64,000 bases of DNA, taken from contig CM020620.1 of NCBI GenBank assembly GCA_009829735.1, positions 1,426,001-1,490,000 on the forward strand. Direction: 5' to 3'. The notes beneath the pieces are model-generated. The model ran no database searches. It had not been told where the DNA came from and saw nothing but the letters and a program-made list of their open reading frames with translations. Below are positions 11,762-23,437 of this stretch, piece by piece. Every line of letters begins with the position of its first letter. Within the stretch, counting starts at the first letter, position 1. A program made the translations under genes and the position numbers. Source of the stretch: Pyropia yezoensis. Taxonomy: Eukaryota > Rhodophyta > Bangiophyceae > Bangiales > Bangiaceae.

Positions 11762-14700
11762 TCACTTCTCCTCCTCCTCATCGTCGCGCTTAAGGAAGGG
11801 GTTCTCATACGCAGGGGTGTCCTTGAACTTGCGCTCGGCACCCAATGGAGACTTGCCACCTCGCCGGCCACGCCACATGCGCGGGCGCTGCCGGTACTCG
11901 CGGTAGGCCGGCACGTCCTCTTCCGACTTGTTTGCCGCGTCTGCGGCGGCCTCGGCACCAAACGTGGTATCACCCTCTGGTGATGGCTTGTACAAGTCCG
12001 AAACGGTCGACGAAGTGGCGCTGGTGTCGTCGCTGGTGACGTCGGCGCCAGTGGCGTCGGCCTTCACTACCGCCGTAACCGCTTCAGTGTCGACTGACGC
12101 CACACCTGACGCCGGCGCGCCCGAAGCGCTTGGTGCAGATGAAGAACTGGCACCGGTACCGGCAGCTCCCTCAGCGTTGGCAATCGACGCATCTGCGTCA
12201 ACAATCACAGAGGCTGCATCGGCAATCGATGCCTCGACGTCAGCCATCGTCGCCATCGCGTCCACTACAGCGTACGCGGCGTCAGCACCAGCGGAGGTCA
12301 AATCAGAAGACATGGACGACGACACCTCGGTCGAGCCGCCTGACGGGGCCGACTCCGTGTCCTTGGTGTCCTTGCCCTCCAGCGTAGCCGATACATCAGC
12401 AATCGATGATTCGACGTCAGCCATAGCCGCCATCGCATCCACAACGGCATACGCAGCGTCTGCACCGGCAGAGGCCACGTCGGCAGACATGGACGACGAC
12501 ACCTGGGTCGTCCCCCCCTTCGAGGCATCGCCGAAAGGCGAGACTGAAGGAGACGACGGGGCCAGCGTCACACCCCCGGCACCACCGTCGTTGCCGTCCT
12601 GGTTCCCGCCCTTGTTAGCATCAACGTTCGCACCCTTGATCCGTGCGGCCGAATCTGCCGCACCGTTGTTCTGGCCAATGCTGTCGCCTGACCGACCAAT
12701 CCCCACAGACACCGCCGACCCACCGCCAGATGGCACATACAGCGCGCCGGCGGCCGGCGGCGGCCAAGCGGTCCCCGCCGTTGGCGACTCGCCCAAGCCT
12801 GAGCGGGACTCAGGTGTCTTGACAGTAGCCTCGTCGCCGCTGACGAGAGTACCTGCGTCAGAGTCCCCCTCTGCGCGAACCGGATTCAGAGAGGGTTTGG
12901 ACCGCTCCGCTGCTCCAATGGATTCGTCGATGGTGGCCGCCGCAGCAGACGCTTCAGCAGCAAACTCGGCAGATGCGCGGGCGGCGCGCTCAGCCGCGCG
13001 CTCAGTGCTTCCTACAGTCTCTGCGCTCAACGACGACGATTCCGATACATCAGATGCAGTTGACGTTACCGAAGAACCGCTCGACGGCGCTTCGTACAGC
13101 GTCGTCACATCCGTCGCCCCCGCAGGCTCCGCCCCGGGCGCCTCGTACAGCGTCTCAGTCGATGACGACGTCACGGCGTCCGCCACCCCCGGCTCGGCCA
13201 CCACACCACCAGGCACCGCATACAGCGACCCCACAGCGTCCGGCGAACCAGCATCGACCCCAGTCGGTGACTCACCCGACCCAGGCGCAGTGTACAGCGT
13301 CTCCACCGTGGCAGAGTCACCGACAGCGGCACCACCGGTAGCTATACCAGCATCAGACTGTCCGGTCCCCGACGCACCCTTCCACGACGCATTCGGATCC
13401 CCAGACGCGTCGGCCTCGGCTGATGACTTGGAGGCTGCCATCGCGTCAGCTCGCTCTGTTGCACCGACTGAGGAGTCAATGAGCTCCGCCGCAGCAGCAG
13501 CTTCGACCGCCAAGCGAGCAGCTGTCACGGCTGTCCGCTCCGCGGCACCCACGGACTCATCCATGTCAGCGGGCGGGGTCGGCACTGTCCCCGGCGAAAC
13601 ACGGCTTGATCCGCCGCCAGGATACTTGCCTCGCGGCGCGTCGAGAACGCGCTTCAACCAGGACAGCGGTGAGCCAGCCTTGTCCGATTTCGACGACGAC
13701 ACAGCCCCAGTAGCGCCAGACGCCTTGGCAGAGGCCGACCTTGCAGAGCGAGACTTGCGGGTTTTCGAAGAGGCCGGCGAGTTTGTGGCAGCCTCCTTGG
13801 ATCCCGCTGTCCCAGATGACTGGGGCTTGGGCGTGGCTGCAGCACTGACCTTCCGAACCCGGGCTGCAGTGTCCTTTTCCCCTAGCGCTTTGGCCGAAGA
13901 AGCCTTCGCTGCAGCCTCCTTGGCTGCAGCCGCCTCGGCCGCCGCTGCTTCGGTCGCCGCCGCCTTGGCCGCCGCTGCTTCGGTCGCCGCCGCCTCGGCC
14001 GCCGCTGCCTCAGTCTTGGCCTTCGCAGCAGCAGCCTTCGCGGCGGCCGCGGTCGCGGCGTTCATCACGACTGCATCAGCAACAGGTTTGGCGCCAAGAA
14101 CAGTCTGCACCAACGACGGCACGGATGTGCTCCTTGCGGTGGAGCCCGCGCGTGTGCCTGTCTGTGCGGGGGTACCAGACGCAAGCGGGGTGTCAGACTC
14201 TGCCAGAGAGCCAGCAGTGGCGGGAGTGACAACGGGTGCTGATCCTGCGTCCGCAGTAGAAGCATCAGCCTCGAGAGAAGAGACCGGGGCCGAGGCCGCA
14301 ACGGGCACAACCACCTCCGGCACCTTGGGCACGGAAACAACAGGCCCCGTCAAGATCGGCTCCTCCACACCCGGGACGGTATACATGCTCCCACGCGCAG
14401 CAGGAGGCAAGGGGGGGCTGCCACGCGCGACGGGAGCAACCTGGGTGCCTGCTTCAGCAACGCTCACTGGAGGCGCCGCGGTCTGTGGCGCCGCGGCCGC
14501 CGCCACATCGGAAGCAGGCGTCACGATGCCCTTCGCCGCCGAGTCTGCCACGTCACCAACACCCCCAGTTGCGCTGTCACCACCAGCGGACACGGACTCA
14601 ACAGCAGCGACGCTTGCGCCAACAGATGCGTCGCCAACACCGCTCGACGGCGCTTCGTACAGCGTCGTCACATCCGTCGCCCCCGCAGGCTCCGCCCCGG

Positions 14701-23437: not shown

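Follow-up and report, generated by a model that had tools for sequence, protein, structure and literature searches.

The window analyzed here, a stretch of 64,000 nucleotides from the red alga Pyropia yezoensis (contig CM020620.1), carries a giant gene whose product we tentatively read as a nucleus-encoded, mostly disordered, acidic, membrane-anchored sticker-and-spacer scaffold, possibly of the plastid (probability roughly 0.35). In the mechanism we propose, the leader would direct plastid import, and an 845-residue amphipathic region would lie on a lipid surface such as the thylakoid, from which the long acidic chain would reach out. Motifs of the form [TS][LQ]Yx[AV]P[GS] would act as weak multivalent stickers, either for each other or for one client protein, and many such chains could form a condensate or a dense layer at the membrane. 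Rubisco is one candidate client. Pyropia yezoensis has a pyrenoid, and a link of the giant protein to it is only a guess. We think it quite unlikely that the protein is a red algal scaffold of a plastid condensate, the first of its kind: a thylakoid-anchored, acidic polymer with Tyr stickers, organizing the matrix of the pyrenoid or fastening that matrix to its membranes. The protein is a concrete candidate scaffold in a farmed seaweed.

Gene structure and coding status

Positions below are those of the window unless residues are named, and all features of the giant gene lie on the minus strand. A stop-free frame of 3717 codons runs from 22915 to 11765, with the stop at 11762–11764. We infer a two-exon structure, with the splice read from the sequence. 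Exon 1 (23102–23437; 112 codons) starts with an ATG at 23437 in CACCATGG context and encodes an Arg-rich leader followed by a Gly/Ala-rich stretch; its end at 23102 was likewise read from the letters. Exon 2 (11762–22741) is open down to the TGA at 11762–11764. Between them lies a putative phase 0, GT-AG intron of 360 bp (22742–23101), proposed because its retention brings an in-frame TAG into the reading frame and because it is T-rich (30% T vs. 8% in exon 1 and 18% at the start of exon 2, with 40% in its final 60 bases). An ATG inside the open frame (22795), which leads into a weak signal-like stretch, was set aside as intron sequence, by judgement. The two-exon model gives a protein of 3771 residues, 350 kDa and pI 4.05, confirming both the coordinates and the frame of about 3770 residues of the preliminary description.

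The genome searched comprised 11 contigs with a combined length of 107.48 Mb, including three of 43.59, 34.33, and 29.39 Mb; the part of the published P. yezoensis genome paper that we draw on gives 65% GC and scaffolds of 43.6, 34.3, and 29.4 Mbp (PMC7423979). Convergent with the giant gene is a pseudouridine synthase gene (9217–11334; PF00849). Elsewhere the window holds a TrmO-like tRNA methyltransferase domain (37619–39751) and a GC-rich open frame of 1561 codons without a Pfam match (3867–8552), a possible gene. An LTR-retrotransposon-like pair occupies 44161–50111 on the minus strand: a single ORF encodes integrase and reverse transcriptase together with RNase H and also carries a chromo-domain match that falls short of its cut-off; an ORF with a zinc knuckle lies beside it. 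Rfam gave no match in the window.

Comparison with simulated sequence and among repeat copies supports the giant frame as a real coding gene. First-order Markov sequences simulated for the region (60 runs, all six frames) yielded no open frame longer than 612 codons, vs. 3717 observed, and each of the six distinct repeat spacings reported is divisible by 3. When two of the repeat modules described below (E and B1) were compared without gaps over 72 codons, the sense frame had the lowest dN of the six (0.24) and was the sole frame free of stops; the other five had dN of 0.29–0.56, with stops in every one. The accompanying sense-frame dS of 1.46 is large and the figure therefore rough. An antisense reading was also considered: the plus strand has frames of 1133, 706, and 715 codons, none open throughout, with 53, 28, and 62 stops in its three frames across 11762–22741. 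One antisense frame is also low in dN (0.29, dS 1.06) and contains stops, a low value being expected because its third positions are shared with the sense frame. Because the plus-strand frames contain stops and the module comparison favors the sense strand, the antisense reading was rejected.

A tyrosine motif array in an acidic chain

The protein contains 39 Y-x-x-P sites among its 54 tyrosines, the number of Tyr-centered motifs originally counted. At 80% identity over 27 residues the sites collapse to 21 classes and thus do not represent 39 independent events. Collapsing all tyrosines likewise leaves 35 classes, of which 21 have proline at +3, against a proline frequency of 0.065 (binomial p ~1e-16). 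The commonest form, [TS][LQ]Yx[AV]P[GS], comes in two flavors, TLYxAPG and SSQYEVPS.

Five modules of four motifs each recur along exon 2, all with motif gaps of 24, 25, and 17. Module E (19526–19873), with TLYTAPG, SLYGPPG, TLYEAPG, and TLYDAPA, is the most diverged; the others are B1 (18530–18877), B2 (17357–17704), B3 (14630–14977; the same as B1 across 348 bp), and B4 (13067–13414). A 210-bp (70-residue) tandem array at 15205–17209, of 9.5 copies with 98% matches, carries one SSQYEVPS per unit. It accounts for the ten consecutive motifs that stand exactly 70 residues apart (nine gaps), a regularity pointed out earlier and borne out here. Over the whole protein, 28 of 38 motif gaps fall between 20 and 120 residues. 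The charged C-terminal tail (11765–11911) includes RMWRGRRGG and the final motif, AYENP.

The protein as a whole is rich in Ala, Ser, Gly, and Asp, and its single cysteine is located in the leader. The acidic linkers of the preliminary description proved extreme: besides the pI of 4.05, residues 1796–2613 (818 residues) contain no Lys, Arg, or His. A basic island at residues 3001–3200 (pI 9.9; 13478–14077 by two-exon numbering), Ala/Lys-rich and then Lys/Arg/Ser-rich, interrupts this otherwise acidic chain. AlphaFold2, run on five internal modules (5 rows), gave a low-confidence module model with a mean pLDDT of 54.3, no residue at or above 70, and no secondary structure; such low confidence is as expected of disorder, and equally of a thin alignment. 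Sticker-and-spacer architecture with disordered linkers, as first proposed, is thus upheld as to the repeats, and the disorder is predicted from composition together with the low-confidence model. Two practical consequences follow from this composition. Tryptic peptides of 7–35 residues would cover 5 of the 39 motifs (the longest tryptic peptide has 821 residues), leaving most of the array out of reach of ordinary proteomics, and any search that demands a basic protein would skip this one.

A rival account is mere expansion. On that account the gene would be a recently expanded low-complexity sequence without a specific sticker function, and duplication alone would have set the motif count, as the collapse of the 39 sites into 21 classes and the identity of B1 and B3 over 348 bp would suggest. 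The synonymous sites point the same way. Four-fold-site GC is 0.60 (T 0.29) in the giant gene vs. 0.87 pooled from 30 kinase segments, and 44 kinase and light-harvesting complex (LHC) segments of the same genome range from 0.70 to 0.99; this low synonymous GC is an oddity for an ordinary gene, for which turnover of the repeats and weak translational selection are possible reasons. Against this stands the preservation of motif codons despite highly diverged synonymous sites. In the 24 codons of the three complete motifs shared by modules E and B1, 21 residues are unchanged, and third positions account for 17 of the 20 nucleotide differences. In the remaining 48 codons of the comparison, with the truncated fourth motif assigned to the linkers, 26 residues are unchanged and third positions take 25 of 52 changes (Fisher p 0.007 for 17/20 vs. 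25/52). Motif codons retained in this way, with changes at third positions, argue that the motif is under selection more than the linker. Selection thus appears to maintain the motif in the one sufficiently diverged module pair on which the test rests (E/B1), B1–B4 being near copies, and we regard mere expansion as highly improbable.

Amphipathic region and leader

Upstream of most of the motif array, residues 251–1095 (19793–22327) form an 845-residue amphipathic region with four LSPVDRIAARLEAEARA-type subrepeats, a feature new to this analysis. At 100 degrees its hydrophobic moment reaches 0.258 vs. 0.146 when shuffled (z 13.9), the spectrum peaks at 3.62–3.64 residues, and identity peaks occur at lags of 4, 7, 11, 15, 18, and 22. 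For comparison, the moment is 0.164 in the repetitive array (z 6.0, also above shuffles) and 0.191 in the C-terminal part (z 2.7). On a helical wheel, 81% of the 47 Arg of the region lie on the polar side, as do Asn and Gln; Val, and to a mild degree Thr, tends toward the nonpolar side. This display is partly circular, because the axis is set by hydrophobic residues, and the wheel gave polarized residues in the repetitive array too.

Group 3 LEA proteins, perilipins, and alpha-synuclein have amphipathic repeats of 11 residues whose Val/Ala/Thr face is weakly hydrophobic, and their helices bind membranes or lipid surfaces. We take the pattern of residues 251–1095 to be of this 11/3 type. The likeness is one of sequence periodicity, and the giant protein differs from these families in being fused to a sticker array; none of its nine pieces searched gave a Pfam match above cut-off. 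The region suggests a role at membranes or one of LEA-like kind, and a desiccation protein is a serious rival to the scaffold reading. A giant amphipathic disordered protein of that kind would coat membranes and buffer the loss of water when the tide is out, and its Tyr motifs would be secondary. Its 11-residue ladder recalls group 3 LEA proteins, as does a composition rich in Ala, Ser, Gly, and Asp and free of Cys beyond the leader.

The habitat also fits such a role, the leafy stage of P. yezoensis being described as intertidal in the part of the genome paper used here (PMC7423979). However, nine pieces of the protein searched against Pfam at E 5 (all but 14003–14638 and 15539–18745 of the window) gave no LEA match; the only matches were LPD38 (E 0.53) and ISG65-75 (E 1.6), both below cut-offs and taken as chance. 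The Neoporphyra haitanensis genome paper, in the part covered, also reports that LEA proteins were not found, and a protectant would leave the selection on the motif unexplained. We therefore hold this alternative to be somewhat unlikely.

Plastid targeting is read from the leader. The first 60 residues of the protein have AFL at 11–13, no acidic residue at 3–45, and a total of 8 basic ones. The genome gave 14 LHC matches, and for three of these a leader could be read in the same exon. Each of the three leaders shows AF close to its start, 7–11 basic residues, and 1–2 acidic residues, so that 0/3 pass all three leader thresholds. Among kinase controls, 13 of 30 loci had a usable start, and 0/13 passed all thresholds (one has an F motif); of 14114 open cases among exon 1 shuffles, 23 passed all three. 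These thresholds were set after the leader had been viewed, and the targeting control is therefore suggestive only. The transit-like leader of the preliminary description thus stands insofar as it shares AF and basic residues with three LHC leaders, and is weakened in that the control is small and post hoc; the resemblance to LHC leaders, and hence plastid targeting, is suggestive only.

Because the leader evidence is weak, a scaffold outside the plastid has to be weighed, located in the cytosol, at the cell cortex, in pit plugs or in the wall, with the leader a GC-rich accident. Dense Y-x-x-P arrays are characteristic of the substrate domain of p130Cas-type proteins, which are cytosolic scaffolds, and the giant protein resembles them in its array. 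Pfam matched neither SH3 nor Cas domains in the nine pieces, and the analogy to Cas scaffolds drawn at the outset gained no support from them. An SH2 search had no match in the genome, and as the control genomes gave none either, it carries no weight either way. A start at the alternative ATG within the ORF would read the T-rich end of the intron as a weak signal-like stretch, which also tells against a site elsewhere in the cell. On balance we find a non-plastid location rather doubtful.

Relatives and comparison with known systems

Three parts of the protein, namely its C-terminal 667 residues, the opening 333 residues of exon 2, and 919 residues from the middle, were used to query the same genome (that is, the protein outside exon 1, ~650 residues of the helical region at 19793–21741, and 13766–17035), and all matched only this gene. 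A pattern search for the LY form found 24 matches in the genome (9 in the giant gene, 13 in an identical 20-mer, and 2 others; controls 9), and a second pattern 44 (15 in the giant gene, 13 in the same 20-mer, and 16 others; controls 29). For the SSQY form, 13 of 15 matches lie in the giant gene (controls 6). With these three patterns no second motif array was seen in the genome. The identical 20-mer, ACTCTGTATGCTGCGCCCGG, occurs at 13 places on all three large contigs and is perhaps part of a mobile element.

The preliminary description had proposed seeking red algal orthologues that keep the repeat. The neighboring pseudouridine synthase matches a Pyropia vietnamensis protein (76% of the query aligned at 72% identity), so the protein database includes a close relative; the giant protein itself had no homologue at E 0.01 among the best 1696 candidates (2044–6505 aa) or at E 0.1 among 8000 candidates of about 527–1676 aa. 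An orthologue could be missing, or be hidden by fragmented annotation, fast divergence, or a word-limited search. Prokaryote and viral contigs were not matched by a 500-residue query, NCBIfam gave no match in five pieces of the protein, and the first 1000 residues of exon 2 had one match in the PDB (E 0.28), taken as chance. The RuBisCO large subunit had no match in the assembly, from which the plastid genome is thus presumably absent.

The known systems closest in architecture are the Rubisco linkers of pyrenoids, and the literature behind our linker, pyrenoid, and LEA comparisons was used in the parts available (PMC10473226, PMC13159521, PMC11570498, PMC8752119, PMC11649565, PMC11740840, PMC10154280). 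PYCO1, from the red-type pyrenoid of the diatom Phaeodactylum, is described in the relevant sections of one report as disordered, with a predicted transit peptide, six repeats of ~80 aa and a pI of 10.03; its Tyr-containing GTGYNP motif is repeated, with the Tyr needed for condensation, and its KWSP stickers bind the Rubisco small subunit (PMC10288592). EPYC1 of Chlamydomonas is given there five helical stickers and a positive charge (PMC10288592). According to the consulted part of a review, EPYC1, PYCO1, and CsLinker share no mutual sequence homology. FLIPPer, as far as its description extends in the sections used, hunts Rubisco linkers by 20–120-residue spacing and structured repeats (PMC11570498).

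Could the giant protein be a linker of this EPYC1/PYCO1/CsLinker kind, its motif binding and condensing red-type Rubisco? Like EPYC1 and CsLinker (Chlorella), it is a disordered chain with spaced stickers; the spacing is workable, the leader LHC-like, and the Tyr-Pro sticker recalls GTGYNP of PYCO1. Nor is a red algal linker named in the pyrenoid reviews, as far as covered, or in literature listings; a study of C. merolae, also a red alga, likewise names none in its covered part, and reports no EPYC1-type homologue, a result it calls uninformative. Among the features of Rubisco linkers, the protein has disordered, repeated stickers and 20–120-residue spacing, but it has no net positive charge (pI 4.05 vs. 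10.03 for PYCO1, EPYC1 being positive too), and KWSP occurs in none of its eight Trp contexts. Its sticker, moreover, shows no structure in the low-confidence model, whereas FLIPPer sought structured repeats. Departing from the linker class in charge and KWSP lowers the case for a Rubisco linker and leaves that for a sticker scaffold as it was. We judge a linker of this kind very doubtful.

For the preferred reading, a membrane-anchored scaffold, the proteins SAGA1 and MITH1 of Chlamydomonas provide a precedent of function, as the sections consulted indicate that dedicated proteins can link membrane and matrix; this is the kind of role proposed here for the giant protein. PYCO1 is the closest analogue found, by likeness of design: both would be disordered chains with repeated short aromatic-sticker motifs, Tyr-Pro in each case. 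Unlike PYCO1 with its KWSP stickers, the giant protein has 39 motifs in 3771 aa and a long amphipathic region in addition. From EPYC1 it differs in Tyr motifs without predicted structure and in its strongly negative charge (the charge comparison covers EPYC1 and PYCO1). If the reading is right, P. yezoensis would have a scaffold of opposite charge to both EPYC1 and PYCO1.
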